DNA from: Closterium sp. NIES-65
Taxonomy: Eukaryota; Streptophyta; Zygnematophyceae; Desmidiales; Closteriaceae
Direction of reading: 5' to 3'
Assembly: GCA_948144175.1 (NCBI GenBank)
Contig: CANXME010002461.1
Coordinates: 1-64,000 of the forward strand
Length of the DNA stretch: 64,000 bases
The position numbers and the translations under genes were made by a program. Below the pieces are notes generated by a model that saw nothing but the letters and a program-made list of their open reading frames with translations, made no database searches and had not been told where the DNA came from. The stretch's first letter is position 1, and each line of letters starts with the position of its first letter. Positions 17,541-64,000 of this stretch are shown piece after piece.

Positions 17541-17987
17541 TGTTGGGCTGAAAACCCCTTAGGATCTTTGCAGGGGTGAACTCTGGGTAGAGTTGGTGTA
17601 GTAACGGAAGCGTTAATTAAAGAGTTGTGAACCACCTTGCGCTAGTATGTGAGGGCAAAGCAAGTTGATTAAAACAAAGAGATACAAGATTTTTGTAAGA
17701 GTACAAGGAATACGAAGAGATACAGTTAATAACCGTTTTACTATTGCTGTTGCGGTTCGATACAGTGACGACTCGGGCAACTGCTCAATACCGAGTTAGT
17801 TGTTTGTCCTTGCTGTCGCGCTGTACTTTGTCAGGTCAAAGGTCGCTGACCTTTGACTTTCGCGTAACCTCCAACAGTTACTTTCAACCTCCGAGGGTTG
17901 ACTCGCCGGTGATTCGTTATACTTCGTTTCTTTTGTGTCTTAGTGTTTCGACACGACAGAGGCGCTTAGGACCGATTGTTTCCAACA
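17541..17987 (-). repeat. Copia-2 3' LTR
   Basis: Pairs with 34247-34694. Preceded on the minus strand by the purine tract GCGAAGGGGAG. Contains the imperfect palindrome AGGTCAAAGGTCGCTGACCT near its middle, also present in the other LTR. Confidence 0.9.
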
Positions 17988-20900: not shown

Positions 20901-22981
20901 CGTCGGTACATATCGGAGTTGGAGTAGAAGTTGGCGGTGAAGTTGGCGCTACGATAAACTTCTCGTGGTGCTGGGTGTAGTTGTTGCGCGGGTGTCGATG
21001 GTGTGTCGTCAATGAGGAGCGGTGTCGTTGAAGGACCAGCAATTGGTGTTGACGTTCCTGCTGCTGCCGTTGATGGTTCTGCTACTGCCGATGTTGTCTC
21101 TGCTGCTGCCGATGCTGTCTCTGCTGCTTCCGATGTTGTCTCTGCTGCTGCCGATGTTGTCTCTCCTGCTGCTGATGTTGTCTGAATTGTTGGTAACGCC
21201 CTTGTTCTTTCTGCTTCAGGGATGGTGTGTGAATACCAGAAGCCTTCTGGACTGAAGTCTGGATCAAGGTCTGGAGGGTGTGTCCAGTTGGTGAAGTTAA
21301 CGATGGCGTCGCTCTCGGCGGTGCCAAGATCAAGAACGAAATCAAGAACGAAGACGTTGTTCTTGAGGACCGCCTTGCCGATGTAAAGTCCTCCTCTCCC
21401 GTGATACAGCTTGAATTCTTGGGTGGTGCTGTCTGCTTCGAGGTGAATCCCTTTCGCCATTAGCTGACTGACGCTCAGTAAGTTGTAGCCGAGTCCCTCC
21501 GCGATTAGTACTTTTGACATCTGCAGTATAACGTTTGTTTCCCTTGACTGAAGTTGAACTACGCCTTGTCGTCGTGTTCGCAGGTTCTGATTGTTGGCGA
21601 CTGTAATGACAACTTCGCGTTGAAGTTGGTGTTCTCGTTGAACGAAGCGTCCCGAGGAGCACATGTGCTGTCCGCAGCAACTGTCCAAGAACCATGTGTC
21701 CTTTCCGGATGGTTCGCTTTGGGCGATGGCGGCGTATGTCGGGTTCGGCTGAAGTGACTTGCGGCGGGGTGTGGTTTCGTCGAGTTGTTCTTCCGGTGAG
21801 TAGTGTGGTGGTGACTCGGTGATGAAGGAGTCACTCAGCTTTGCCATGCAGCTGACGATGTTTCTTGCTCCTTGTGCAGGTTGTCCCGTTGAAGTCGTTG
21901 TGGCTTGAATCTGGGTCGTGGGATTTGCTTGCGTTGAGGCGATTTGGCTGCTTGAAGGTCGAAGTTGCCGCTGTGGAGTTGTTGACTGTTGACGATTTGG
22001 GCAGTGCGTACGCGGGTGTCCTGAAGTTTTGCAGATGTGGCACAACGGAGGTACTGGCTTCGGTTGTTGCTGCCGGTTGTTGTTGTTGTTGTAGCGTCGC
22101 TGAGTGTGGAACGCGAATTCCGGTGATGATGTCTTCTTTTTGTGTCGTTCTTCTTGCAGGTCCATGTCTTGCTGCTCGGCGTGGATTTCGGCACAGAGCG
22201 CTGCTTCGGAGATTCTTCCGTGAGCTCGGAGAATGGCCTTTGTGGCGCGCCATTGAGGACCGAGGCCGCCGATGATGACAGTCACGAAGGCGTCTTCAGA
22301 GATCGACCCTCCGCATCGAAGAAGCTTGTCGCTCAACTCGCGACATCGACTGATATACGCCATTCCTTTCTCCCCTGGTTTCATTTCAACCGTTGTCAGT
22401 TGCGCCATTAACCGACTTTGGCTTACGCTGTCTGTTGCTTGATACAGGCTCTTCAGGTGGTTGTACGCGAGCTCCGCGGAGTTGCCGTAACCTCGGTAAG
22501 ACCTTATGTTCTGCTGTTGAGTCGGGGTGATATTCCTTAGTAGGATCGTGTACGCCATCATTGACTGATAGGTGTACTGCTGCTTCTCGTACTGTGTGCC
22601 GTTTGTTGGGTATGGCAGAGACCCGTCGAAGAACCCGAGTATCTGCGCGCCTTCCATCATCAGCTCGAACTCGAACGACCAGGTGAAGAAGTCCTTTCCA
22701 TCGAAGGGTCTTGACGTCTGCATCTTCAGAACGTGTGCGAACTGCGACTGAACTTGTAATGCGTCCAGTGATTTTTCTTGTCCAGGTGAAGGCTGTGGGT
22801 GTGGCATAAAGCTGATAGACCCGCGCTCGTACGGAGCAAAGGTAGGCTGCTGTTGTTGATTTCCTCGTGCATATGATGAGCCGTCGAGACTCATGGGTGT
22901 TGCTCCGTTGTTATTGCTGTTGTGTGACTTCGCAGATACCGATTGCTGGTGTTGCTCGTAGAAGGACATGAAGGAGAAAAA
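17988..22981 (-). pseudogene. Copia-2 gag-pol polyprotein, main part
   Basis: The frame runs on from the N-terminal gag fragment beyond the nested insertion. It encodes gag, a canonical CCHC zinc knuckle (CHICKTSGHPRTHC), protease region (WFLDSCCGQHM), integrase (HARMGHPSNTVL, then FIDAATRYVWH and QGVAERMNRTLQNSM), RT (WVFRVKTKADDTIDKFKARW, IVYVDDLLYIG) and RNase H (YVDADHAGDSDNRRS, ALSSVEAEYIAL). Stops interrupt it at 19915-19913, 19075-19073 and near 18942. A protease D-S-C in place of D-S/T-G is a further sign of decay or divergence. It belongs to a different copia lineage from copia-1, -3, -4 and -C, being less GC-rich and having a true zinc knuckle. Confidence 0.9.
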
Positions 22982-23102
22982 TGTCAAATTATAATGTTGT
23001 GTAGGCTATAGTGGGGTAGCGAATATGGGGTACACATTTCTAGGGTTGCATATTTGTATCACTTTCGTTCCTTAGTCAATCATTCTCGTTTCAGTTTTCT
23101 CA
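22982..23102 (+). repeat. Copia-3 5' LTR
   Basis: 121 bp, TG...CA, sharing TGTAGGCTATAGTGGGGTA with the copia-C and copia-4 LTRs. No matching 3' LTR exists in the window. Confidence 0.85.
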
Positions 23103-33850: not shown

Positions 33851-33902
33851 TAGGTGGTGGGCCCGAAGCACAGTTCCCACAGGGGAACCTGCTCTGATTC
33901 CA

Positions 33903-34038
33903 TGTCAAGAAGTGAACGAGAGAAAATGTGTGAACTATGAACGAAGTGAGTACAAATAGGAAACCCTAGCTGGGTTGTACCCCCTATGGGATACCCCACT
34001 ATAGCCTACACAAATAAGTAAGCTATAATGTTCTGACA
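33903..34038 (-). repeat. Copia-4 5' LTR
   Basis: 136 bp, TG...CA on the minus strand. Clearly diverged from the copia-3 LTR at the other end of the chimera, so the two ends are not the two LTRs of one element. Flanking 5-mers differ (AAAAA before 22982, GAAGT after 34038). Confidence 0.85.
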
Positions 34039-34246: not shown

Positions 34247-34694
34247 TGTTGGCCTGAAAAACCCTTAGGATCTTTGCAGGGGTGAACTCTGGGTAGAGTT
34301 GGTGTAGCAGCGGAAGCGTTAATTAAAGAGTTGTGAACCACCTTGCGCTAGTATGTGGGGGCAAAGTAAGTTGATTAAAACAAAGAGATACAAGCGTTTT
34401 ATAAGAGTACAAGGAATACGAAGAGATACAGTTAATAACCGTTTCACTATTGCTGTTGCGGTTCGATACAGTGACGACTCGGGCAACTGCTCAATACCGA
34501 GTCAGTTGTTTGTCCTTGCTGTCGCGTTGTACTTTGTCAGGTCAAAGGTCACTGACCTTTGACTTTTGCGTAACCTCCAACAGTTACTTTCAACCTCCGA
34601 GGGTTGACTCGCCGGTGATTCGTTATTCTTCGTTTTTTTTTGTGTCTTAGAGTTTAGACACGACAGAGGCGCTTAGGACCGATTGTTTCCAACA
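34247..34694 (-). repeat. Copia-2 5' LTR
   Basis: 448 bp, paired with 17541-17987, followed on its outer side by the TTTTT target duplication. Confidence 0.9.
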
Positions 34695-35503: not shown

Positions 35504-35737
35504 ACTATAAAGCCTTTCGATAGACCGCAGCATCAGCATGCTTCAGTCTTCTAGAAGTCGACTACCCTAATCTTACCTGGCCCAAGCATCACCACTTCAG
35601 GGATTCCCTCTTCTAATTCCTTCATCTGACCGCTTGCTGCCAGAAGCACCATTCGGATCGATCGCCGTTCTTATATTTGATAGTTGTATCACCGCTCTTT
35701 CGTGATTGTTCCCTTAAGAGCCTTCCTCGACGCCGTC
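35504..35737 (+). promoter_or_regulatory. Core promoter and 5' UTR of the root-cap-like gene
   Basis: CTATAAAG at about 35505-35512 is a good TATA box about 230 bp before the ATG at 35738. Transcription would then start near 35535-35545. A short upstream ATG frame (35538, 10 codons) may be at or just before the start site. Inferred from sequence only. Confidence 0.45.
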
Positions 35738-36949
35738 ATGTCTCGAGCGTTTCTCCTCCTCCTCGCGCTATCCGCGTTATTAGCAGCAGCCGCCGGCGTC
35801 GCTGCTGCGACGAAGCCCCCCCGCTCAGGCGGGGTCGCTCTGCGCGGCGGCGACGGCAGCGTGACCGGCGGGACGGCAACAGCAGGCGGGCGCGGCGGCA
35901 GCGGTGGTCCGCACGCCGTTTCGCACGGCGATTCGCGGCACGGCGGGATTCCCGGCGGCGGGAGTGACGAGGAGAGGGAGGACGGCGACGGAGGCCACGG
36001 CGGGCATGGCGGCCGGGGGCACGGGGATGTTGGTGGTAGCAGTAGCCATGGCGGCGGGCTGTGCGGGCGGGGCGGGTGCAGCAACGACGCAGGCGAAGTG
36101 GGGTACTGGAAGCTGCCCGACTATGGCCGCTGCAGCATTGACACCAGCAGCAGCAGTGGTGGTGCGCCGCGGAAGGCAAACGAGGCGTGGTGTGCGGGGG
36201 CGGCTATGGGCGTGAGGGAGTGCTGCAGCCGATGCAGTAGCACCAACGTTACCGCCGATGGCACTCCCTTCAACTGTCTCCACTGGGTGCACATTCCGTA
36301 AGTACCTCCCGTTCCATCCACCTGCCACCTTGCTCCTTTAGCTGCACGCCTCTTGGTTCTTCCCAAAAAGTCTTCCTTCTGACTGCCAGCTTGCCTGGTT
36401 TGCTATACAATTTCTGAACAAGTTAGCATTTTTCAGGTGCGCATTTCGACGTTCCTCCCCCTCATCTCTCTCAACCTCTCCTGTTTCACATTTCTTGCTC
36501 CAGATCTCCTGACTCTCACGACCGCCGCAGCAGCGAGCAGCGCGGCAAGTGCGTCCTCATCCCGGCCGTGGACACTCTCACGCCCGAGAGGGCCCGCAAG
36601 GGGCGCTGCGGCACCAACACGGGCGGTGACACGGTGCGCGTGGGGCGGCGGTGCGCGTGTGGCGAGAATGACCCGCACTTCCTGGGCGCGCACGGCACGC
36701 GGTTTGACTTCAACGGGCTGCCAGACCGCTCCTTCTGCCTCTACACTGACCGCCGCGTGCACATCAACATGGCCATGCGTGGGTATCTGGACGAGCGCCC
36801 GCTTGCGCTTGCGCGCGCACCCACCGCTGCTGCTGCTGCTGGTAACCGTAGCGCGCTGGCTGCCGCCCGGTTTGTCAACGGCTTGGCGGTTCGCACGTGG
36901 ATCCGACAGCTGGCGATCATGTGGCACGACGGCGAGAGCAGCAACAGCA

Positions 36950-37021
<72 letters not shown>

Positions 37022-37602
37022 TCACTAGTGCAAACGTTAATGCGTCGTCTCATTCTCTCGTGCTCACAGCACGGGACGGCAAGGAGCAGACTCGCGGCGC
37101 TCAAGGCTTCCTTGCATCCGCCACTCTTGACGGCAAGCCTCTCCCACGCCTCACCCTTGGCAAGAGCCACGTTCTCTCCAATGGGCGGCTGGTTCTGTCC
37201 TTTGTGGGCCAGGAGAAGACCGGCCCGTTCGACGTGGACGTGTACACCCTCCGCATGGAAAATCTCCTGGAGCTCGAGCTGAAGCTGCGCGCGGCGCACC
37301 CTCTGTTGCAAACACCTGAGGACGCGCAGGTGCACATCAACCTGATGTTTGTGGACTCGAATCCGAGCAGCCAGGTGCACGGGGTGATGGGGCAGACGTA
37401 CCGCAGCGGCAGGGAGCAGAGGACGATGGAGTTTTCGAGGCTTGCGGCTCTGCTGCACCACCCTGTGTCAGTGGATGGTGAGGAGGGGAAGGGGTTTCTG
37501 GATGGGGAGGTGGGGGATTATGAGACGTCGGGCGTGACTGCTACTGATTGCAGGTTCACGGCTTTCAATGGCGGCCAGCTGCCTCGGCTGGCAGAGGAAT
37601 GA
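35738..37602 (+). CDS. Secreted root-cap-domain protein
   Basis: Exons 35738-36297 and 36504-37602 (GTAAGT donor, CTCCAG acceptor) give 552 residues. MSRAFLLLLALSALLAAAAG is a clear signal peptide. A Gly/His-rich low-complexity segment follows, then a Cys-rich region (WCAGAAMGVRECCSRC). The C-terminal half, from CACGENDPHFLGAHGTRFDF through VHINMAMRG to SSQVHGVMGQTYRSG, matches the pattern of the plant Root_cap/LEA-related family, whose fold resembles a von Willebrand D module. The family is extracellular and of poorly known biochemical role. A run of about 29 AGC codons (36931-37020) puts a poly-Ser tract inside the domain. The ATG chosen is the first that gives a signal peptide; an in-frame extension upstream has none. 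Confidence 0.78.
36931..37020 (+). repeat. AGC trinucleotide run coding for poly-Ser
   Basis: Near-perfect (AGC)n with AAC interruptions at its start, inside the root-cap domain coding region. The reading frame stays open, so length variation in whole codons would be tolerated. Confidence 0.9.
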
Positions 37603-47858: not shown

Positions 47859-50767
47859 ATGGCTGCCTCAGAAGTTATAGATGATGGGCCCGACGAGGAG
47901 GACGATGCTGATGTTCTCCCAGCTTCGGACCCACTCACCGGTCTAGACTTCCTTAGGTCTCTCCTACCGAAACATAATCCACAGCAACCGAAACCGTCGC
48001 AACCCAGCTCTATTCGCGCTGATTCTGCTGCTCTGCACGAGGTCGTCGCTAAACCAGCGACAGCCGCGCAACAGGCTGTGCGCCAAGATTCGTCCGTCGA
48101 AGCACCTTCTCGTCCCGCGCCACCGACAAACCTGCGGTTCCGTCAGTCCACCATTGCGTGGGCAACACCACCTCCTCCATCGACCACTGAGACTCTTGCC
48201 AGTGATGCATCTCCCATGTAGGACAACTCGAATCCCACGCAGGCTAGCTCAAAGCCCAAGGCCGACACGCCTGAGTTGAAATACGAAGAAGCGCATGCGC
48301 GGTACAAATCCAAGTGGGCCACCAATTTCAGTTGGCTTGTCCTAACTCAAACCTCCACTGGTGCTCCTTCTTTCAAGTGCAGTATTTGCTTGGAATTTGA
48401 AGGACTGAATGGCAAGTGTGGGCGGCGTACTGAGGGAGCAACCGACGTGCAGACACAGTTCTTCAAGAAGCACGAAGGGACGGTGAAGCACCGGTTTGCT
48501 CTGCAGCGCCAGGAGGACTTGTTCCAGAAATACGGGCGCCAGCAGCGCATCGACATGCCCCCGAAGGCGCAGGACTTGGAGATGCTGCAGGTGTCTTCGC
48601 TCGTGGACTCGCTGTACTTCATGGGGAAGTCCAACGAGCCCATGGACTCGTGGATCCGGTTGGTGCGCTACCTGGCGAAGAAGAAAGTGCCCGGGTTTCC
48701 CGCGGAGGGCTACGGCACGTACTACAACACGTAAGTAGTGTCTGTAGCATGCCTGTAGGTTTTGTTTCTGTTTGACTGTCACTAACGACTACGATTTCTT
48801 TGTGTAGGTACGGATTTGGAGAACTCACCCAAGCAATTGCGACGTGGCTCCAAACAACGCAACTTGAGCACCTTCTGACGAGCCCATTCATCGGGATTAC
48901 ACTGGACGAGAGCACCGATCGTCGCCGCGGCAAACACATGATTGTGTTTGCCACCTTTCTCCACGAGGGACATGTTGTCATGGAGTTTATCGCCCACTTG
49001 AGTGTTGAGAAGGCTGACGCTGCTTCTTTGTGCAGTTTGTTGGTTTCCCACCTTAGGGCTGTCGGCGTTGACCTGCGGCGTATCTCGGGAATGAGCACTG
49101 ATGGCGCGTCTGTGATGGTGGGGAGTCAAAACGGTGTGGTTGCTTGCCTGCGAATGCTCATCCCCAATCTGGTCTCGTTTCACTGCATCGCGCACAGGTG
49201 CGTTTGTGTTTTAATGTGTCACAATCTGTATTGTTTAACCCTTTGTTTGTTTAACAATCACCAACCCATTTGTGTGTTTCTGTTTGGCAGGGAGGCGTGG
49301 CTGCCAAGGCCGCGGCAGAGGAGATACCAACGTTCAACATGGTGGACGATGTTATCCGCGCCGTCGCAGAGTACCTCGGGCGATCGTCACCGTGGCATCA
49401 GCGCTTCATGGAGCTGCAGGAGGTGTTCACCTCCACCAACCTCGAGGTCCAAGGCATATATGACGTGCGGTGGCTTTCACGAGGAGCTGCAGTCACCCGG
49501 TTCGTCCACGTCCTTCCAGCGATCATGGTGATGCTGTCGGAGTGGAAGGACCAGACCATGTACGAAATCGTCACATCGTACAGGTTCCACTTCCTCATCA
49601 GGTTCCTCGCGGACCTACTGGAGCAGCTCAACGTGCTCTCCTCCGTTTTCCAGAAGCGGGAGGTAAGTTGCCTACTACGTGTTGCATGTTTTGGTACTAA
49701 TTTAAATGTGTCTGTTGGTCATCCGCTCTGTACTAATTTTTTTTTTTAATGTGTTTGTTGCGGCTCGACCACGCGCAGGTGCACACGCAGATTGTGCGCA
49801 CGACATCGATCTTGGAGAGCCGTTACGTCGACCGTGGTGACGACTTCGGGGGAGGGCAAACCAAGAGGCTGTACCGCTTCATTGAGAAGCACGGACCGCG
49901 TGGTTCACCAGAAATGGTGATCGAGGGAGCTTCGTCCGATGGCAGTCTCAACCGCTTCAAGGTGACGCTTCACGAGCGCACCAACCCGAACTATCGTGGG
50001 CCCGGCCACCACGACGCGTGCGTGGCGCTCTGCACCGACATGGCCGAGTATGTCGTCGAGAACCTCCAGTCCAAGCTTGGCGACCTTGAGTCTCTTTCTG
50101 GAGTGAGGCTGTTTATCCCTGACTTGTGGCAACCGCAATGGGACCGGGACGCGCGGCAGGCACAGTGCCTGGAGTGGTTCTTATCGCTTGTCACGTTGTT
50201 TCGCGCAGATGAAGCCGACGAGATCCTACAAGGTTAGTTTGAAGTGCCACCCGGTTCCCCCTCTCTCACGGCCTTTATACTAACCGTTGCCTCTTATACA
50301 TTGCAGGTATTGACAAGAAGAAGGCCATGAGGGAGCTTCGCACGCTGTGTCCAGTTCTTGCCAGAGCGCCGAAGAGTGAGCGTAAGTTCCACACGGGACT
50401 TACCGCCATTCTCAGGACACCCGATTGGCAGCAGGCGTACCCCAACCTCGTCGGACTCTGTGTGGCGATTGCAGTGCTCCCTCTCAGCACGGTCGAGTGT
50501 GAGCGAGGCTTTTCCCGACAAAACCTGATCAAGACGTGGCAGAGGGGCAGCATCAAGGATTGTAGGCTCAGCGATCTGCTTTGCATCTCACTGCTAGACT
50601 ATGAGTTAGACGTCCCAGGAGTAGTCGAGATTTGGCGCGCTTACAAGAAGCGCCGGTCGTTCACAGCACCTGCATCAAGGCACAGGGAGGAGCCCCCAAG
50701 GGCTTGGAAGGAGCATGTAGATGAGCCAGTAGTGGAATGTGATCTTGTAAATTCTATGACAGACTAA
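47859..50767 (+). pseudogene. hAT transposase, five exons, one in-frame TAG
   Basis: Exons 47859-48730, 48808-49201, 49291-49662, 49779-50232 and 50307-50767 join in phase to about 850 codons. A TAG at 48219-48221 interrupts exon 1 after the disordered N-terminus. The rest holds a zinc-finger-like CSICLEFEG...H segment, a catalytic-core start (PFIGITLDESTDRRRGKH), MSTDGASVM, the FHCIAHR motif, and the C-terminal dimerisation region (LSTVECERGFSRQNLIKTWQ, then LCISLLDYE). The exon 2 donor at GTTTGTG is the one that keeps the frame. If translation starts at MKYEEAH (48276), the stop is avoided and only the N-terminal extension is lost, so activity is conceivable. Confidence 0.85.
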
Positions 50768-51307: not shown

Positions 51308-51436
51308 TGAGAAGACTAGAACGAGGGAATGAATGACTAAGTGAAAGTTGGGTACAAATATGAACCCCTAGAAAGGTGTACCCCATATGTGCTACCCCAC
51401 TATAGCCTACAATAGCTATGTCATATAAATCTGACA
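51308..51436 (-). repeat. Copia-C 3' LTR
   Basis: 129 bp, minus strand TGTCAGATTTATATGACA...TTCTCA. Followed outside by GACAC. Confidence 0.92.
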
Positions 51437-51707
51437 CACCCCCATAGGCAAAGTGGGGGAGAACAAGGGGTCACAAGACCAGTCAAGCAAAGCAAACCAA
51501 AGCAAGCTCAGGGTGGATCACAACGTCACCACACATTTCGAGCACAAGGTCAAGGCCACAAGGCCAGTTCACATGCAGGAGTACACATATATATAAAAGG
51601 CTAGACGAGAAAGAGCAGGCGTATATATATATGTAACAGCACAAGCAAGGTCAAGAGGTGAGCAAGTGAGACAAGGCAGGCACAAGACCCAGCTGAGTAC
51701 AGAAGCG

Positions 51708-54700
51708 CTAATGATCACAAGGCGGAAGTGCCTTGGTGAAGATATCAGCAGTGTTGGCCTCAGAGGCCACGTACGCAAGACGCAGCTGACCACGCTGCTG
51801 TAGCTCACAAGCAAGGAAGTAGCGAAGAGCAATGTGCTTCGTTCTATGCTCCAGTCTCTGCTTTCGACACAAGGCCAGCATGGCCTTGTTGTCTACGTAC
51901 AGCACTAGAGGAGAACGAGGCGGCTCTCCGAGGTCAGTCAGCAGGTAGGTGAGCCAGCGAAGCTCCTGTGCAGCCATGGCCCCGGCGTAGATCTCAGCCT
52001 CACAACAGGAGCCAGGAACAGAAGACGAGCGGGTAGCCCGCCACGAAACAGAGCCAGAACCGATGATGATAGTAGGACAGTAGCATGGAGACGCGTGACA
52101 GTAGGACTGGCAGCACGAAGAGAGTTCAACTCTGGGTCGGCAAGGGCAGGAAGAGAGGACGCAGGAGAAGGCAAAGGGACACGCAGAGGAGTAGTGGACG
52201 GACGCAGAGACATCCGGTGCGTGCGAGGGACAGGAAGAGGACGCTGACGCGAACCGCGACCACTAGTGCGAGCACCACAGACAAGCGACGCAGGGCGAGA
52301 CGCAGGTTCACGACGCTCAGCAAGACCTCCAGTAGGACCAGTGTAGGGAGAAGGAGCAGGCAGTGGGGAGGCCGGCTGTAACTGTAACCGGGACGGGACA
52401 GGCTGTAAGGGAGGAGGAGGACCAGTAGAAGGCGGGAGACCAAGAACCTGCTGAAGGAGCGGAACGAAGTACGGCCAAGGCCGCGCGGCGACTCCAGACA
52501 CAGCAAGGACAGCACCCATATCCCCAGCAGCAGCACTAGCGCCAACAGCACCTCCAGCTCCAGTACCTCCAGCATCATCAGTAGCACCCCCAGTAGGACC
52601 GCCTCGAGGACCGACAGTAGGAGCCTCAGTGCCAACACCCTCAGCAGCTCCAGCTCCTATCGTTCCTGCAGGCCCAGCAGCTCCAGTACTTCCAGTACGA
52701 GCAACTCCGGGACCCGCGGCACCAGCACCCTTAGCAGCTGAAGAAACTCCAGCTCCAGCAGCACGCCTCCAGCGCCGGGCAAACCACTAGCGCAGCTCCT
52801 GCGGAGAGAGTGGCTCCCGCCGAGACGAAGCACCTAGAGAACCTCCAGGCCTAGCTCCCGCAGGCTCCTCACCCCCAGGCTCAGCACCTCCAGACATGGC
52901 ACCCCCAGGCTCAGCACCCCCTGTTTCAGCACCCCCAGGCTCAGCACCCCCTGTAGTAGCACCCCCTGTAGTAGCACACGTAGGCTCAGCACCCCCAGGC
53001 GTAGCACCCACACGCTCTGCACCCCCAGAGTCAGCACCCCGAGGCTCAGCACCCCCAGCAGCACCAGAGTCACCAGTCACCTCAACAGGCTCGACTGCGT
53101 CTACCTGGGACACACTTGAAGGGGCAGGACCCTGAGGAGGGAGGGGGTCTACCGGGGGGGGACCTGGCACAAGGAAGAGTGGTGCCGGATGGAGGGACAG
53201 ATTGCGGTAGGGAAAGAGGCGGTAGTAGGGGACCGACTCGTCAAACGTGACGTCCTGGGAGGACAGAATACGGCGAGAGGTGGGGTGGTAGAACTGCCAC
53301 CCTGGCGCGTCAGGGGGGAAGCCAAGGAAGACGCAAGGAGCAGCACGAGGGGACAGATTGTCCGCAGACAAGTCACGGACAAACGCCCGAGATCCCCAGA
53401 CACGGAACGCAGATGCATCGCCAACCTTCCCTGTCCATAGCAAAGCTGGGGAGGTCTCCAGCATGGAGACCCTGGGGTGAAGGTTGATCTGACGCGCTGC
53501 GTACCGAACCGCAAACGGCCACAGAAAATGGGGGGTAGCCGCATGCATCATGGACGTACGAGCGACGTCCATGACCATGCCAATGCGGCGCTCAGCAATC
53601 CCATTTTGCTGTGGTGAGTCCGAAAGCGTGAAGGTCTGGCAGACGCCTCGTGCACGACAGTAGGCTCGCAGAAGGCCAGAGGAGAACTCTCCGCCTTTGT
53701 CAGAGTGCAGACGCAAAAAAAGAAAGTCCGAGCCGAAGCTCCTCTTGAGCTGGAGAGGAGTTGTGCGGATCTAGTCGATCAACACCTCAGTGACATCACC
53801 CTTGCTGCGCAAGGGGAAGACTGTGGTGTAACGCGAGTAGTCGTCAACGAGCAGTAGGAAGTAGTGCTTGTGACCTTGTCCACGGACGAGGGCCGGGCCC
53901 CACACGACCATGTGAAGCGTCTGCAGCGGGGCCTCTGTCGGAGGAAACTGGGAGGAGTGAGGGGCAGCCCGCTGCCGCCCCTCGACACAGGGGACGCATG
54001 TAGGGCCAGGCCTTGGAGGAAGGGGAGGGAGGGACTGGGGAAGACCATAGACAAGGACACGGGAGGCCATGCCTCGGAAGCAGGGAGGGGTGACCAAGGC
54101 GGTGGTGCCACAGGAGAGTCTTGTGAGACAGGAGGTGACATGAGCAGGGGGCAGACTCAGGACCAGACCTGGACGCTGCAGCAAACACCTGACCCGACGC
54201 AGCTACCTGACCAGACGCAGGGACAGGAGGGGACTCAGTGGTCAGTGTGTACAGGCTTGACCCCAGCTGACGTGTAAACGTGGCCAAGTGTCGGCCCGTC
54301 AGCGTCCGTGAAGTGGGTCACCCGCTGGCTCGCAGGAGTGAACTGGTGAACTCCCCCATCCTGTAGGTCAGCACCACTCACCAACTTCGTAGAGAACAAG
54401 GGGAGGTAGAGACCAGACAGGGTGCCAGAGGGAGCCGCCGGACACGGGAGGACTGTGGAGAAGTGAGCAAGGACTGGACCCCCAGAGGGGTCTTCCAGAG
54501 AGACTGCAACCGGCCGACCAAGCGGCGTGAGTGTGGTGCGGTCTCGAAAGAAGGAGCGAGAAGCCCCTGAATCAAGGGTGAAGGTGAGGGAGGCGGAAGC
54601 CGACGCGGTACCTGAGAGCGCAGACTCACCAGGACCCGAGGAAGCATACGCACTGGCACCTAGAGTAGCAGCCTCGCTAGCACCTAGAGCAGCAGCCTCA

Positions 54701-56139
54701 CCAGTACCTAGAGCAGCAGACTCAATGCCCGTGTCGGGCGGAAAACACCGGTAATAGTCACCCTCATCACTAATAGTCACAGCATACATGGCAGCAAGAA
54801 TAGCATCAAAGTCAAGGTCAAAGATAGCTACTCCCGCCCTAGACTGCTCACCCCAGCGGGGGATCTCAGTGGCCTCCGGGAACTGGTGACGCCAAGCGTC
54901 CGTCAAGCGGTCAAAGCAGCGCTGGGTGGGTTCGCACCCCCACACTACTCACCCGCGCGGTCGCCGGTGCGTAGGACATAGGTGCACGGACCAGTACCCC
55001 CACCCCGCTGACGTGCAACGTACCACTCACGGAGCTGCTGAGGGGGGGGGATGTCCCGAGTGCGCTGCTGCTGCTGCTGGTGCTGCTGCTGCTGCTGGCG
55101 AGGACAACCACCGGAGCTGACCCTCTGCGCAGCGCCACCTCGACCAGCTCCACCTCCTCCTCCACCGCCTCCTCCACCGTCGCCACCTCCGCCACTTCCG
55201 CTCCCACCGCCACCACCGCCGCCGCCTCCGCCTCCACTGCCGCCACCGACACCTCCACCCCCGCTACCACTCCCACCGCCACCCCCACTCCCTCCGCTGC
55301 CTCCACCGCCGCCTCCACCGCACCCGCTAGCCCCTCCAGCGCCCCTGCCCCCCTTGCCCTTGCCAGGGCGATATCTCCCGCTAGGGGTAGACGCCGCACC
55401 GACCGACTCAAGCCCAATGAGGTCGGCTGCAGCAGCAGAGGCAATTGAGGGCAAAAGGGGGGAGGGGGAACACCCCTCAAAGATGGGGGTGCGAGGGTCA
55501 CCACAGGAGGCTCCTATAGTGACAATGCTCTTCTCTGCTGCTAGGAGGGCCTTCTCGAGGAGGTCAACGGTGAGAGTGGTGGGGCAAACTTAGAGGAAGT
55601 GGTCCCGGACTACGCGAAGAGAGTCAGGGAGCCGGGTGACTATGTAGTCGAGGGTGATGTACATGGGGGGGGGGGGGGTTCTTGGCGCAGAACTCAGCAG
55701 GAAGCGCAGCGCGGTAGCGAGTGTCACTAGTGCGGAGGTGCGTAATGAGGTCAGCGTCTGTGGGAAAGGCAGCAAGGTTAGGGAAGAGGTACGGTAGCAT
55801 GAGGCGGCTCAGTGCAGCTGTGGCAAGGGAGGAGTAGCGTGCAACTACAGCGGCGTACAAGGTCTGAGCACTCTTGTACTGGCTAAAGTGCGCACGCTCA
55901 GAGGTAGGCAGGTGGCGACGGATAGCAAGACGTGCAGCAGCATCGCGCGTGGCCCACTGTGAGCGAACAGTGGCGTCAGCATCAGCAGCAGGGGTAGGAG
56001 AGCTACCAGAGGTGAGGTCAAAGAGGGAGAGACCGTCCACCCTATCGCACTGTAAGAAATCCTGCAGGTCATCTACCCTGATGTCAAAGTCAATGGCCCG
56101 ACACTCAGCGTCAAAAGCGAGGACACTAGGGGTAGCCAT
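51708..56139 (-). pseudogene. Copia-C gag-PR-INT-(deleted RT)-RNase H remnant
   Basis: Starts MATPSVLAFDAECRAIDFDI at 56139. A frameshift falls in the poly-G tract near 55667-55677, and further stops and shifts lie at about 54945, 54235, 53771 and 52787. Protease (LDSGASRSFF), integrase (LVTPP-type HHR region, HSDKGGEF, SPQQNGIAERR) and the Gly/Ala-repeat linker are readable. At about 52085 the linker jumps from PTVTRLHAT to the RNase H C-terminal half (EAEIYAGAMAAQELRWLTYL, YVDNKAMLALC, VASEANTADIFTKAL). Confidence 0.88.
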
Positions 56140-56179
56140 GACAGTAGTCGACTAGTAGCGCGAATAGTGGGGTAAGGGC

Positions 56180-57190
56180 ACTACAGAGGTAGAGGCGCTG
56201 CTCTTACCGGACAGGGTGGCTTGGGCGGTTCGGCAGGAACTGCAGCTCGGCGGCTCGGCGACTCGGCGGCTCGGGCGGCTCGGGCGGCTCGGCGGCAACT
56301 GCGGCTCAGCGACTCGGCGGCTCGGGCGGCTCGAGCGGAGCGGCGGTACGGCGGCTCGGTAGCAACTGCAGCTCGGCGTGCGGCGCCCCGGCGGCTCAGG
56401 TGGTGCGGCGGCTCGGGCGGCTCGGGTGGCGCTGGCGGCTCGGTGGTGACGGTGGGGCCGCGTGAAGGCGGGGCCGCGTGAAGGCGGGGCCGTGTGAAGG
56501 CGGGGCCGGGGCCGGGAAGGGCGGGCGACGGGGCCAGCAGCGGCTGGGCCGGGGCCGGGAAGGGCAGCGCCGGGGCCGAGAAGGGCGGCTCGGGGCCGCA
56601 GGGGTAGGCGACGGGGCCAGCAAAGGTTGGGCCGGGGCCAGGAAGGGCAGCGCCGGGGCCGATAAGGGCGGCTCGAGGCCGAAGGGGTAGGCGACGGGGC
56701 CAGCAGAGGCGGGGCCGGGTCGGGAAGGGCGGCGTCGGGGCCGGAAATGGGGCGGCGCCGAGGCCGCGGGGTAGGCGACGGGGCCAGCAGAGGCTGGGTC
56801 GGGTCGGGAAGGGCGGCGTCGAGGCCGGGAAAGGGCGGCGCGGGGGCCGCGGGGTAGGCGACGGGGCCACAGGGCGGCTGATCGGGGCCGGGAAGGGCGG
56901 TGCCGGGGCCGCAGGGGCAGGCGATGCGGCCAGCAGAGGCGGGGCTGGGTCAGGAAGGGCGGCGTCGGGGCCAGGAAGGGCAGCGCCGAGGCCGCAGGAG
57001 TAGGCGACGGGGCCGCTAGGGCGGCGAATCGGGGCCGCGAGGGCGGCGCGACACAGCCACTAGGGCGGCGCGACGAGATGAGGCCGCGAGTGCGACGCGA
57101 CGGGGCCGCTAGCGCGACGCGACGGGGCCGCTAGGGCGGCGCGAGAGGGTCGAGAGAGGGGAGCGCGACTCAGGCAGGGGCTGAGCGTGC
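56180..57190 (-). repeat. GC-rich tandem leader of copia-C
   Basis: CGGCTCGGGCGG units (about 56220-56440) followed by GGGGCCGGGAAGGGCGGC units (about 56455-57010) fill the leader between gag and primer site. Open frames here are compositional. Confidence 0.85.
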
Positions 57191-57262
57191 TCCAGGTAGG
57201 AAAAAAAATCAAATTGGTGAGCCGTAGGAACAGTTCCCACGAGGGAACCTGCTCTGATACCA

Positions 57263-57391
57263 TGAGAAGACTAGAACGAGGGAATGAATGACTAAGTGAA
57301 AGTTGGGTACAAATATGAACCCCTAGAAAGCTGTACCCCATATGTGCTACCCCACTATAGCCTACAATAGCTAGGTCATATATATCTGACA
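57263..57391 (-). repeat. Copia-C 5' LTR
   Basis: 129 bp. The adjacent minus strand begins TGGTATCAGAGCAGGTTCCC, primer site plus the first arm of a GTTCCC/GGGAAC hairpin. Confidence 0.92.
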
Positions 57392-59213: not shown

Positions 59214-60711
59214 TCACGGACGACATAAAATGTCGATTTTCTTAGCGAGCGCGAGAATCTCGTTGAATTTCGAGAGCCCACGTAGCATGATTTCGTGCGA
59301 GATGTCCGGCTTCAGCCCTCTGACGTAACGGTCCACCCGCTCCGCTTCGTGCATGTAGCCGACTTGCTCGCATGATGCGAGAAAACCACTCGTGTAGACT
59401 TGAACCGATCCGAGCTGCCGCCAAGTACGCAGTCTCTGATGCGCCGAAATAGAAGCCACGATTGGCTCAAAGCACGCCCGAAGCCTTGCGCACCACGCAT
59501 CCCACGTGCTGTACTGGGCGGTCTCGCAGAACGAACTCCAGGTGATAGCTAGACCCGTGGGCCCTTCCTCTTGCGACGGTGGCTCAAAGGCGCGTGGCGA
59601 CGTCACGATGACTCGCCACCAGTCCATGGCGGGGCCCCTCAGCAGCGAAACGGCATACCGAATCTTTGCTACGTCCGACTCGACGTAATTCGCGTTGAAG
59701 AAGACGTTCATCGTGAAGACCCACGATTGAACCGTCGGACCTCCACGTTGGCTTCGGTCGAAGCAGGGCGGGCGTTGCGGCTTGAGTGGCATTGGTGTCA
59801 TGATGGCCTGTTCGCCACTTGTCGTCGCAAACTCCACGTGCCGACGGGCTTTACGAGGCTCCCGCGGGCTTGGTGCGACCCTGTTCCCTCCCATGCCAGG
59901 CATCGGCTGGGCGGCGCCATCACTGGCTGCGCCTGAGCGCAGTCCCATGTTATCGTGTTGTGTTGTGTCAGAGGTTCACTTGTGATCCCCGATTTATCAT
60001 ACGGAAGGGCTACAGGCATGTTGGCCTGGGGGGTTATAGGCGCACTGACCCGCTACTTAACAAGCCCTTTTATCCCAATGGTCTAGTGGTTGGGATTCTG
60101 ACATGGTATCAGAGCAAAGGTCTCGGGTTCGAATCCCGGTGTATGCACTTCGGGCATCCTTGTGCGGGGGGGTGTCAGAGGTCAGCTGGCGATCCCCGAT
60201 TGATCCAAGGGAATGGTTGCAGGCACGTTGGCCTGGGGGATTATGGGCGCACTGACCCGGTACTTTACAAGCCCTTTTATCCCAATGGTCTAGTGGTTGG
60301 GATTCTGACATGGTATCAGAGCGAAGGTCTCGGGTTCGAATCCCTGTGTGTGCACTTCGGGCATCCCAGTGCGGGGGGATTTTAGAGGTCCACTGGTGAT
60401 CCCCGATTGATCCTAGTGAAGGGTTACGGGCACGTTGGCCTGGGGGGTTATGGGCGCTCTCACCCGCTACACAAAAAAACCCTTTTATCCCAATGGTCTA
60501 TGTGGTTGGGATTGTGACATGTTGGTGTGCTGGACGAAATGACGATCTGTTCGTCCGATTGTGCAGATGCATTTGTTGGTGCGTGTGGTGGCGCGGGAGT
60601 GTTCACCGTTGATTGTTGACTCGCGGAGTCACGTTCCGCCGTGAGCGTCGCAATTTCGAGCGCCGAATCTTCAAGTTGGCGCACTAGACGGTCGAGCTGC
60701 TCCTGCGTCAA
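59214..60711 (-). pseudogene. Gypsy gag, interrupted by the TRIM
   Basis: The N-terminal part (60711-60525, EQLDRLVRQLEDSALEIATL) and main part (59948-59214) come into the same phase when the 559-bp TRIM plus one target duplication are removed. The main part has the retrotransposon gag pattern (FDRSQRGGPTVQSWVFTMN, LRGPAMDWWRVIV, RVDRYVRGLKPDI). It stops at TGA 59216-59214. A CCHC zinc knuckle (CFACNRPGHRKSEC) follows in the same frame at about 59114-59073. Confidence 0.85.
59966..60519. mobile_element. Tandem TRIM: three 138-140-bp LTRs and two 69-bp internal domains
   Basis: LTRs 59966-60103, 60173-60310 and 60380-60519 (TGTCAGA...TCTGACA in the first two) alternate with internal domains 60104-60172 and 60311-60379. 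Each internal domain starts with the full primer site TGGTATCAGAGC and ends in a G-rich polypurine tract. TGTTG duplications flank the array (59961-59965, 60520-60524). There is no coding capacity, and a single unit would be about 345 bp. The LTR end plus primer site plus internal start contains A box TGGTCTAGTGG, hairpin TCTGA/CATGGTA/TCAGA and B box GGTTCGAATCC in tRNA-like order. A tandem tRNA-derived SINE is the alternative reading; the 5-bp duplication and LTR signals favour a TRIM. Confidence 0.85.
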
Positions 60712-60907
60712 TGTTGCGAGCGTGGCGGGGGTGTCGGGCGAGCTCAGCTAGAGCCTCTGTTGTGGCCGTGCGTGCTTACGAGAGAGCACTACGAGTGGCG
60801 GTGCTGTGTTGCTGAGAGACGTCTACCCCCCACCCTAAACCCGAGATAGTGAGGAAGCGAAGGTGTGGGTGCGGTCCAAGAAGAGATCGTAAGCTCTGAA
60901 TACCAAG

Positions 60908-61250
60908 TTTTACGTGTGCAATTGAGTGAGCGAGCGAGAATTGCACTATCGAAGAAAAAGTACAAATGAGCGAAGGCATGAGCGAAGAATATATAGCGAA
61001 ACTACAGTGGTAACGCTAATGGACTGTGGTTGTCGCGTGACGGGCCTGGGACTGAGGATGGAAAAAGTGTCGAAGCGGAGGCCCGGAGCGCGGGTTACCC
61101 GCCGAGCCATGAGGTCAGGGTGCGACGTGCGAAGGTGGCGGGAGGATTGTCGATGCGAGAGTTGCGAGTGGTAACGGTGCTGACTGTGGTGCTATAGTGG
61201 TGTACGCGCTGAGCGGGGACGCGAACTAAGGAAAAGGATTTTTCCTCACA
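60908..61250 (-). repeat. Gypsy 5' LTR
   Basis: 343 bp. Its minus-strand end was probably ...CGTAACA as in the other LTR but now reads ...CGTAAAA. Contains TATATAT-like promoter sequence (minus strand CGCTATATATTC). AAAAC follows outside at 61251. Confidence 0.9.
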
Positions 61251-61255
61251 AAAAC

Positions 61256-61357
61256 TACCCATTTCGAGCCACCCATACTGAATGTAATTTCTACATGAAA
61301 CAAGTAGAAAGAGCTGATGCTAAGATGTAGATTTACACCAAACGAGATTTGTATGTT
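61256..61357. other. Short host segment right of the gypsy element
   Basis: About 100 bp of unique sequence, the former neighbour of 45886 before the gypsy insertion. No feature seen. Confidence 0.5.
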
Positions 61358-61662
61358 TGTAAGGAATTTGCTCAATATTCCTTATGCGCACCCTGCAACA
61401 TCGCGTACAGCAGCAGCCGATGTTCGCCCGTTATTGCTAACGGGACTTCGCCGACTTCGTGCGCACTGTTTTACCAAACCTCGCATTGCTGGCCCGGCCG
61501 TGTCGGCCTACGCTTCGGGACTAGCCCGAGCCTCGCTTCCAGCGTAGCACTAGCTAGCTCGCACGCACCACGTTACCGTTTGCATGTTTCGCGTATAAAT
61601 GTTCGCTCATGCCTTTGCTCACATTCTCTACTCGTTTGACACCTTAGTGCAATTCTCGCTAC
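61358..61662 (+). repeat. Inverted, diverged gypsy LTR fragment
   Basis: Starts TGTAAGGAA like the gypsy LTR read in the opposite direction and ends with TATAAATGTTCGCTCATGCC...TAGTGCAATTCTCGCT, clearly related to the reverse complement of 60908-61250. The last part (U5) is cut by the TRIM at 61663. No internal gypsy sequence follows. Confidence 0.75.
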
Positions 61663-61857
61663 TGTCAGAATCCAAACCACTAGACCATTGGGATAAAAGG
61701 GCTTGTTTAAGTAGCGGGTCAGTGCGCCCATAACCCCCCAGGCCAACGTGCCTGTAACCCTTCCCTAGGATCAATCGGGGATCACCAGTGGACCTCTGAC
61801 ACCCCCCCGCACTGGGATGCCCGAAGTGCATACACCGGGATTCGAACCCGAGACCTT
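61663..61857 (-). mobile_element. Second TRIM copy, inverted and truncated
   Basis: One LTR (61663-61801, 139 bp) and most of an internal domain (61802-61857) in reverse orientation. The polypurine tract and the B box (GGTTCGAATCCC on the minus strand) are intact. The sequence breaks off before the primer site and continues as the GC-rich leader of copia-5. Confidence 0.82.
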
Positions 61858-61899
61858 GGCCGGAGCGCGCTTGGCCCCTGCTCGAGTCGCGCCCCGTGT

Positions 61900-62640
61900 C
61901 GTTCCCCCCTCGCAGCCTCTAGCAGCCCCTATTACGGCCCCTCACGGCCCCGTCGCGCCGCCCTTGCAGTCCCGTCGAGCCGCCCTTTAAGCAGCCCTGT
62001 CGCCGCCCCTTACTGCAGCCCTCTCGCCGCCCTTTAAGCGGCCCCGTCGCCGCCCCTAACTGCGGCCCCGTCGCCACCCTTCAGCAGCCCCATCGCCACC
62101 CTTCAGCAGCCCCGTCGCCACCCTTCAGCGGCCCCGTCGCCTCCCACCCCTTCCGCGGCCCTGTTGCCGCCCTTTCAGCGGCCCTGTCGCCGCCCTTTTG
62201 CGGCCCCGTCGCCGCCCTTTCACAGGCCCCGTCGCCGCCCTTCAGCTGCCCCGTCACCGCCTTTCAGCGGTCCCGTCACCGCCCTTCCCGGCCCTGTCGC
62301 CGCCATTTCAGCGGCCCCGTCGCCGCCCCTACCTGCGGCCCCGTCGCCGCCCTTCGGCGGCCCCGTCGCCGCCCTTCCGCGGCCCCGTCGCCGCCCTTTC
62401 AGCGGCCCTGACGCCGCCCTTTCAGCGGCCCAGTTGCCTCCCTTCAGTGGCCCCACCGAGCCGCCCTTGATGCCGAGCTAACGAGCCGCTGCGCCGCAGA
62501 GCCACAAAGCTGCTGAGCCGCCGAGCCGCCAGTGCTGCCGAGCCGCCGAGCCGCCTTTGCCGCTGAGCCGCGTTTTGCCGCCGAGCCGCCGAGCCGCGTT
62601 TTGCCGCCGAGCCGCACTGCAGCCGAGGCGCCACTTCCTG
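61900..62640 (+). repeat. GC-rich tandem leader of copia-5
   Basis: GCGGCCCCGTCGCCGCCCTT-type units about 20 bp long, then GAGCCGCCGAGCCGC units (about 62460-62620). Same place and composition as the leaders of copia-3 and copia-C but different unit sequences. Confidence 0.85.
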
Positions 62641-62738
62641 TCGGCCTGCCCGGGTCCGCCTCACTTACCTGGTAAGAGTAGGGCCTCTGCCACTGCACTG
62701 CCCTGCCCCACTGTACTCACTGCCTGTCTACTGCTGTC

Positions 62739-64000
62739 ATGGCCACCCCTAGTGTTCTCACCTTTGACGCTGAGGGTCGGGCAGTTGACTTTGAGGTTTG
62801 GGTAGATGATCTGTAGCTTTTCCTACACTGCGATAGGGCAGACGGTCTCTCCCTGTTTGACCTCACTTCTGGTGCCTCTCCTGCCCCTGCTGCCGATGCT
62901 GAAGCCACTGTTCGCTCACAGTGGGCCACCCACGATGCTGCTGCTCGCCTTGGTGTGCACCGCCACTTACCGACCACTGAGCGTGCGCACTTTAGCCAGT
63001 ACAAGAGTGCTCAGACCTTGTACGACGCTGTAGTCGCACGCTACTCTTCCCCTAACACTGCTGCACTAAGCCGCCTCATGCTACCGTACCTCTTCCTTGA
63101 CCGTACTGCCTTTCCCACAGTCGCTGACCTCATGACGCACCTCCGCACTAGTGACACTCGCTACCGCGCTGCTCTTCCTGCTGAGTTCTGCGCCAAGAAC
63201 CCCCCCCCCCCATGTACATCACCCTCTACTACATAGTCATCCGGCTCCCTGACTCTCTTCGCGTAGTCAGGGACCACTTCCCCCAAGTTGCTCCCACCAC
63301 TCTCACCGTTGACCTCCTCGAGAAGGCCCTTCTAGCGGCAGAGAAGAGAACACTCCCTGTAGGAGCCTCTCGTGGTGACCCTCGCACCCCCGTCTTTGAG
63401 GGGTGTTCTTCCTCTCCCCTCTTGCCCTCAGTTGCCTCTGCTGCTGCGGCCGACCTCGTTGGTTTCAAGTCGGTCGGCGCTGCGTCTGCCCCGAGTGGGA
63501 AACGCCGCACCGGCAAGGGAAAGGGGGGCAAGGGCGCGGGTGGGGCTGGCGAGGGCGGTGGAGGTGGTGGTGGAGGTAGTGGAGGGAGTGGGGGTGGTGG
63601 TGGGAGTGGTGCCGGGGGTGGCGGCGGCAGCGGCAGCAGTGGAGGCGGAGGAGGCGGCGATGGTGGCGGAGGGAGCAGAGGCGGCGGAGGTGGCGGACGA
63701 GGCGGAGGTGGAGGAGGCGGCAGAGGCGGCAGCGGCGGTGGCGGCGGTGGCGGAGCCGGTCGCGACTCTGCGCAGAGGAGTGGCACAGGTGGTGGTCCGC
63801 GCCAGCAGCAGCGGAGTGGCGTGACCCTGTCCCCTCAGCAGCTTCGTGAGTGGTACAGTGCACATCAGCGCGGTGGGGGTTTTGGTCCCTGCACTTACGT
63901 CCTCCGTACCGACGACCGAGCTGGTGAGCAGTGCAGTGGCCCGCACTCCACCCAGCGCTGCTTCGGTCGCATGACGGATGCGTGGCGTCGCAAGTTCCCT
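62739..64000 (+). pseudogene. Copia-5 gag, with early stop and frameshift
   Basis: ATG at 62739 (MATPSVLTFDAEGRAVDFEV); TAG at 62814-62816 after 25 codons. The frame then continues through the gag domain to a poly-C tract near 63201-63211 where length change shifts it. Beyond that, the Gly-rich linker (63535-63760), Gln-rich start and PQQLREWYSAHQRGGGFGPC segment are readable up to the window end. Copia-3, copia-4 and copia-C have the same domain order. Confidence 0.85.

Follow-up and report, generated by a model that had tools for sequence, protein, structure and literature searches.

A tandem TRIM of Closterium sp. NIES-65 with a putative Pol III promoter split across the LTR/internal junction

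Introduction

The closest described counterparts of the element reported here are the Helenus TRIMs, which carry tRNA-derived Pol III boxes in their LTRs and have been proposed to be driven by Pol III (Kojima, 2024; PMC10886601), although Pol III transcription is unproven for these elements as well. The only plant member listed is Helenus-1_SMo from Selaginella, with an LTR of 120 bp, an internal domain of 85 bp and a 5-bp TSD (PMC10886601). Mimicry of tRNA next to a primer-binding site (PBS) is already known from HIV-1, as described for its TLE in passages of PMC11181671. A spacing of 30–40 bp is given for the boxes of type-2 promoters in the abstract of PMC7279448, and according to passages of PMC11700998 transcription of tRNA genes in Arabidopsis starts at CAA triplets within the 10 nt that precede the gene and stops at poly(T).

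The window analysed here is the whole 64,000-nucleotide stretch of contig CANXME010002461.1 from Closterium sp. NIES-65, referred to below as the 64-kb window. A preliminary description of this DNA regarded a TRIM with a tRNA-like module across LTR and primer site as undescribed. This was too strong, since Helenus TRIMs with tRNA-type boxes were described in 2024 (PMC10886601), and the novelty therefore shrinks from a new kind of element to a new arrangement, in which box B lies outside the LTR.

Structure of the insertion

The insertion at 59961–60524 consists, in order, of a TGTTG duplication, three LTRs alternating with two internal domains, and a second TGTTG (Table 1). The three LTRs of 138–140 bp and the two internal domains of 69 bp had been claimed previously, and their coordinates are exact. 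Without the TSDs the tandem measures 554 bp, and a single LTR–internal–LTR unit measures 345 bp (138 + 69 + 138). Independent support for the tandem comes from TRF, which when run on the window returned a period of 207 with 2.7 copies and 87% matches at 59965–60521; the repeat finders agree with the layout of three LTRs and two internal domains.

The 12-mer TGGTATCAGAGC is found without mismatch at the start of both internal domains and a G tract at the end of each, so that the primer sites, G tracts and TGTTG duplications of the preliminary description are all present. LTR1 and LTR2 both start with TGTCAGA and end with TCTGACA. The description needs correction for LTR3, which starts with TTTTAGA instead of TGTCAGA, ends with TGTGACA and carries a 1-bp insertion in its A box (TGGTCTATGTGG). 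With LTRs on either side of a short internal domain, a length below about 1 kb, and a putatively non-coding sequence (open frames run over the element), the element is a TRIM. It has a PBS after the 5' LTR, a polypurine tract (PPT) before the 3' LTR and a TSD within the 4–6 bp of this class, the last on the one TSD-bearing insertion seen in the 64-kb window, copy 2 being truncated.

Table 1. Features of the TRIM tandem, its second copy and neighbouring retroelements (window coordinates).
Feature	Position	Strand	Remarks
Copia A LTR	33903..34038	-	136 bp (extent by PBS-like site); TGTCAGA...TTGACA; candidate helper type
Copia B	51308..57391	-	Candidate helper type; LTRs 57263–57391 and 51308–51436, 129 bp each
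Gypsy gag ORF (stop to stop)	59214..59975	-	Retrotrans_gag PF03732, 2.3e-08; 5' leader holds the TRIM insertion
Left TSD, TGTTG	59961..59965	.	5 bp; exact match to 60520–60524
LTR1	59966..60103	+	138 bp; TGTCAGAGG...TTCTGACA
Putative R region, AAGCCCTTTT	60062..60071	+	In LTR1; CAA-type start to T4 terminator; start from plant tRNA-gene rules (passage of PMC11700998)
A box, TGGTCTAGTGG	60079..60089	+	In LTR1; second 60286–60296; interrupted in LTR3, 60494–60505
PBS 1, TGGTATCAGAGC	60104..60115	+	Second 60311–60322; same 12-mer in Copia B, 57251–57262 (-)
Internal domain 1	60104..60172	+	69 bp
B box, GGTTCGAATCC	60126..60136	+	In T-arm CGGG-TTCGAAT-CCCG; second 60333–60343
G tract/polypurine tract 1, GGGGGGG	60166..60172	+	Second 60373–60379, GGGGGGA
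LTR2	60173..60310	+	138 bp
Internal domain 2	60311..60379	+	69 bp
LTR3	60380..60519	+	140 bp; 5' end TTTTAGA; A box split by one inserted T
Right TSD, TGTTG	60520..60524	.	5 bp
Second TRIM copy	61663..61860	-	Complete 139-bp LTR and part of an internal domain; PBS and 5' LTR missing

Further copies and age

The internal domain of the second copy begins directly after the PBS position, its B box and A box are not in the order that a promoter requires, and the copy runs into a Copia leader of the plus strand that has lost its 5' part. We note that this Copia leader (61861–64000, +) has neither LTR nor PBS and meets head-on a TRIM copy that likewise lacks 5' LTR and PBS; the junction is possibly the product of a deletion or of template switching/autointegration.

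Over 138 aligned sites, pairwise comparison of the three tandem LTRs gives 17, 19 and 20 differences, and comparison with the LTR of copy 2 gives 9, 10 and 12. This star-like divergence is consistent with a tandem that was there at or soon after insertion and that is now old.

Pieces of the family were found, antisense, in ten predicted Closterium proteins (2 of 168 and 8 of 495 candidates), six of them from NIES-53 and four from NIES-54. The search used one frame, the antisense translation of the element, and saw proteins of 80–255 and about 275–875 residues; over the same lengths and in the same frame the other Closterium assemblies represented among the matches to ORF 36427–37599 (see below) gave no family protein. 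Together with the second window locus these ten proteins indicate a dispersed multicopy family, outside the window at the protein level only. Precomputed Pfam retroelement domains are present in six of the ten, namely PF00078 in P0119, PF07727 (RVT_2) in four and PF25597 in one, and the other four are Copia-like by eye. In P0119 the internal domain stands between segments of the two LTRs, all three in their original order, within a Gypsy-type reverse transcriptase model, and in P0121 the LTR end passes into sequence that by eye is Copia gag-like. P0120, P0123, P0124 and P0126 stop at the PBS/LTR border, where the gene predictor may have picked CAT^GTCAG as a splice donor. An antisense TRIM peptide related to 'GIRTRDLRSDTMSESQPLDHWDK' recurs in P0117–P0126 and is a mark of transposon sequence in predicted proteomes; the TRIM explains stray peptides of this type in some predicted Closterium proteins.

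Exact-pattern scans for the element returned no stretch in viral contigs and none in genome contigs, a set from which own-genome records may be left out. A looser scan of the viral contigs for PBS plus B box gave a single stretch, which was set aside as unrelated: its B box abuts the 12-mer and there is no A box in the 75 bp upstream. The control scan of the viral contigs with a reversed B box gave none.

Surrounding retroelements and candidate helpers

Copia or Gypsy domains were identified in six of the seven window ORFs scanned. The Gypsy element that received the TRIM lies on the opposite strand, with an LTR at about 60910–61250 and a PBS-like TGGTATTCAGAGC. Copia B has LTRs of the form TGTCAGA...TTCTCA, a 5-bp TSD (GTGTC) and a PBS, TGGTATCAGAGC, identical to the 12 nt of the TRIM. 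The PBS-like site of Copia A, TGGAATCAGAGC, has one mismatch, and its LTR ends in GACA, as does that of the TRIM; a second Copia A LTR was not found in the window. The LTR start TGTCAGA is common to the TRIM, Copia A and Copia B, while two further Copia LTRs start with TGTCAAA. The start, the end and the PBS of the TRIM each occur on some Copia of the window, but never all three on one element, and the end of the Gypsy LTR (...AAAACT before the PBS) is unlike that of the TRIM. A Copia is therefore the likelier helper, the shared termini and primer site being suggestive, and a Copia-type helper probably moves the TRIM.

Several other features of the window were noted. Direct repeats of 448 bp at 17541–17987 and 34247–34694, 96% identical, have the appearance of the two LTRs of a Copia (ORFs 17966–23005, minus strand), inside which two inverted Copias appear to be nested (from about 23000, plus; to about 34038, minus). 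An ORF at 48776–49531 (+; LDESTDRRRGKHM...) resembles by eye a hAT-type or DUF4371-like transposase. The ORFs at 35684–37602 (+) belong to a Root_cap-like family (PF06830 weak, 26.0 bits against a cut-off of 27) with many Closterium relatives; among them, ORF 36427–37599 shows 84% identity over 93% to a protein of Closterium sp. Naga37s-1, and the best 20 of its 116 matches are all from Closterium (8000 candidates scored).

Promoter boxes at the LTR/internal junction

The A box is located at the 3' end of the LTR and the B box beyond the primer site in the internal domain, with a gap of 36 bp, to be compared with the 30–40 bp given for type-2 promoters. For the A box we used the consensus TRGYNNARNNG of the preliminary description; the B-box consensus is GGTTCRANNCC. 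Counted on both strands, the 64-kb window contains 80 A-box matches and three B-box matches, and all three of the latter sit in TRIM copies, the third in copy 2. Properly arranged A/B pairs (gap of 25–60 bp, both strands) number two in the window, both within the TRIM tandem. The matches form a canonical type-2 Pol III box pair straddling the LTR/internal junction, and we infer that the TRIM may be transcribed by Pol III. Since box B is internal, 3' and solo LTRs would be without it and would have no complete promoter.

Among the proteins of the family, the codons allow the B-box consensus in seven of the nine that cover it, the near-identical P0117 and P0118 excluding it, by a lenient test (the consensus is matched by 6 of 1728 back-translations of GIRTR). 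The A-box consensus is allowed in four of six stretches, one of the four (the second of P0125) being frame-shifted, and is excluded by P0119 and by the first stretch of P0125. Within the LTRs, 3 of 40 columns are variable in the block that extends from CCCTTTT to the end and includes T4 and the A box, compared with 28 of 100 elsewhere (Fisher p 0.007, with a block edge picked after the alignment was seen). The longest invariant LTR run, 21 columns, was reached in 1021 of 10000 column permutations and is not unusual. Should the tandem have been inserted with identical LTRs, the differences among them are uninformative on selection of the A-box block; the star-like divergence fits such identity, and drift after insertion is a possible source of the block pattern.

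In our view these boxes probably belong to a split type-2 Pol III promoter carried by a TRIM that is moved by the replication proteins of a resident Copia-type element. The alternative that survives best, although we regard it as unlikely, is an ordinary Pol II TRIM whose A box arose by chance and in which the T-arm-like stretch past the PBS does something else, such as contacting the T arm of the primer tRNA. Boxes of the Ty1 type make an extended contact with the T arm of the primer tRNA. The A-box consensus is weak, as its abundance in the window indicates, and when the leaders following the PBS were paired with a plant tRNA-iMet T arm, only 6 of 300 shuffles did as well as the Copia B leader and 13 of 300 as well as that of Copia D, the query for the latter including its PBS. 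Pairing by Copia B means that a primer-contact role of the region after the PBS is conceivable, and the first TRIM leader, at 24 of 300 in this test, is slightly weaker and about like Copia A (26 of 300). The second TRIM leader, however, is unremarkable (63 of 300). Moreover, an 11-nt B box, a T-loop TTCGAAT and an A-box spacing of 36 bp are together unexpected by chance: any A/B pair occurred in just one of 200 order-1 Markov windows.

The Copia leaders at 57221–57262 (-) and 33862–33905 (-) contain a GTTCCC..GGGAAC hairpin past the PBS. The sequence of this hairpin could possibly pair with the tRNA-iMet T arm and so extend the primer contact.

Folding and tRNA likeness of the junction

The Rfam tRNA model gave a partial match of 16.7 bits at 60078–60140 (E 5.2 over 4227 families) and one of 11.7 bits at the second junction, where the alignment is stretched over the whole model and three of seven acceptor pairs are non-standard. 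Both scores are below the gathering score of 29 and hence below what would be expected of a functional tRNA gene. At the gathering threshold no Rfam family, tRNA included, was matched in the window, and ARAGORN (bacterial code) found no tRNA gene in its 64 kb.

The two 85-nt junctions have predicted folding energies of -21.8 and -19.6 kcal/mol, with z values of -0.39 and 0.50 against dinucleotide shuffles; the corresponding values are 0.68 for the 69-nt internal domain and 0.55 for the 207-nt unit. The MFE arms comprise a long AUCCCAAU hairpin of eight pairs, into which the A-box arm folds, a UCUGA/UCAGA hairpin and a four-pair T-arm-like hairpin with a loop of 7 nt in the first junction and 8 nt in the second. 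An acceptor stem was not found in the MFE of the junctions. The five-pair TCTGA/TCAGA stem with a 7-nt loop that had been reported alongside the A and B boxes is predicted at both junctions, but this stem arises because the LTR end TCTGACA, the inverse of TGTCAGA, faces the TCAGA of the primer site.

These results bear on the possibility that the junction RNA is a tRNA mimic which presents the PBS in the manner of the HIV-1 TLE, with the boxes kept by selection on the fold. The A-box hairpin, the 5-bp/7-nt hairpin and the T-arm-like hairpin do follow one another in tRNA order, the second junction can be aligned to the whole tRNA model and, according to passages of PMC11181671, HIV-1 offers a precedent. 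The fold energies, however, do not differ from those of shuffled sequences, the acceptor stem is absent from the MFE and poorly paired in the Rfam alignment, and the middle stem is a by-product of LTR end and PBS. On direct reading, 9 nt separate the middle arm from a five-pair T stem, and the loop CATGGTA is without the U33 that is the rule in tRNA anticodon loops. The cloverleaf reading was dropped on the folding results, and with it the earlier proposal that a tRNA-like fold presents the primer site. The models gave no support for a selected tRNA mimic at the junction, which we consider very unlikely.

A tRNA-derived SINE that was mobilized by a LINE and amplified as a tandem would account for the tRNA-type boxes, the short length and the absence of any retrotransposon protein of its own from what was seen, but scarcely deserves further consideration on anatomical grounds, which largely refute it and agree with the original assignment of the 59961–60524 insertion to the LTR elements: LTR1, LTR2 and the copy-2 LTR have TG...CA ends, the PBS follows directly past the LTR, the G tract directly precedes the next LTR, the duplication is of 5 bp and not of the 8–20 bp of the TPRT type, no poly-A or short tail was found at the end of the insertion, P0119 preserves the LTR–internal–LTR order and P0121 runs from the LTR end into the sequence judged by eye to be Copia gag-like.

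Proposed expression of the element

All four LTRs have a run of four T residues (T4) that precedes the A box by 7 nt; it recurs at 60275, at 60483 and in copy 2. The first unit and copy 2 contain no other T4, and a further one is present in the second unit, at 60380. CAA is present in three of the four LTRs and missing from LTR3, and no clear upstream TATA was seen by eye. Applying the Arabidopsis CAA/poly(T) rule described in the Introduction, with the A box as position 8, places the start near 60062, the stop at 60278 and the terminal redundancy at about 10 nt.

On the general reading of a split type-2 promoter, TFIIIC would bind the A and B boxes across the LTR/internal junction, and Pol III would begin close to the CAA that precedes the A box, at about 60062. 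The transcript, about 217 nt long, would run through the PBS and the G tract and terminate on reaching the T4 in the following LTR (60278). With an R of about 10 nt (AAGCCCTTTT), this RNA would be copied by Copia enzymes in the ordinary way, by reverse transcription from a tRNA primer and strand transfer. The tRNA likeness of the junction would serve transcription and not primer presentation. We tentatively suggest a more specific, self-limiting form of this design, which we hold to be somewhat less assured than the general reading. In this form U5 contains box A while box B follows the PBS, transcription would be confined to LTRs that are directly followed by an internal domain, and termination at the T4 directly preceding the A box would give templates of unit length with about 10 nt of R.

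A promoter divided in this way would be complete only where an LTR precedes an internal domain, and would be lacking in 3' and solo LTRs. Reverse transcription and integration would always rebuild one full promoter per unit, recombination between LTRs to a solo LTR would delete it, and tandem arrays would multiply it.

Comparison with known elements

The Closterium TRIM shares its size class, a PBS and the lack of coding sequence with SMART (given as 292 bp in the relevant passage of PMC10886601) and with ordinary plant TRIMs. It differs from the canonical TRIMs in that these are treated, in passages of the same source, as without a Pol III promoter ('TRIMp2'). The HIV-1 TLE is a tRNA-like hairpin beside the PBS which, as passages of PMC11181671 describe, binds LysRS and is not a promoter; a matching fold is unsupported in the TRIM.

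The likeness to Cassandra is that of a non-coding TRIM with a Pol III promoter, here a putative one. According to passages of PMC7215508, short Cassandra arrays tend to have about three LTRs, as in the tandem described here, and the search pattern used for Cassandra contains the same 12-mer, TGGTATCAGAGC. The terminal redundancy of Cassandra RNA is put at 18 bp in a passage of PMC10886601, compared with the 10 nt or so proposed for the Closterium TRIM. In contrast to the latter, Cassandra has a promoter that is derived from 5S rRNA and lies in the LTR; no 5S was among the three Rfam matches up to E 10 in 59900–62100.

The greatest similarity is to Helenus, with which the element shares the order LTR–PBS–PPT–LTR, A and B boxes of tRNA type spaced as for Pol III and a similar size (311–1263 bp in Helenus). 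The 5-bp TSDs are those of Helenus in plants and fungi, a Copia helper has been proposed for fungal Helenus, and tandem arrays are known in LTR-11_DR (PMC10886601). As Selaginella is the only plant listed for Helenus (PMC10886601), the present element adds a streptophyte (zygnematophycean) alga to the hosts of TRIMs with tRNA-type Pol III boxes; the words retrotransposon and LTR are absent from the main text of the Closterium paper PMC10407611.

The main text of PMC10886601 describes no element in which a primer site separates an LTR-borne A box from an internal B box, and searches of titles and abstract openings found no report of this arrangement among the papers listed; in the literature examined, a split Pol III promoter design is not described for Helenus or Cassandra. 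The contrast applies to Helenus as it is defined for the group. If Pol III starts and stops as proposed, the small R would make the element a very small natural test of minimal LTR retrotransposon sequence. Unlike Helenus (TRIMp3), in which the tRNA sequence is contained within the LTR, the Closterium TRIM has its A box in the LTR (60079), its B box in the internal domain (60126) and the PBS between them, which indicates that promoter halves can sit on either side of a primer-binding site and alters which LTRs could be transcribed.
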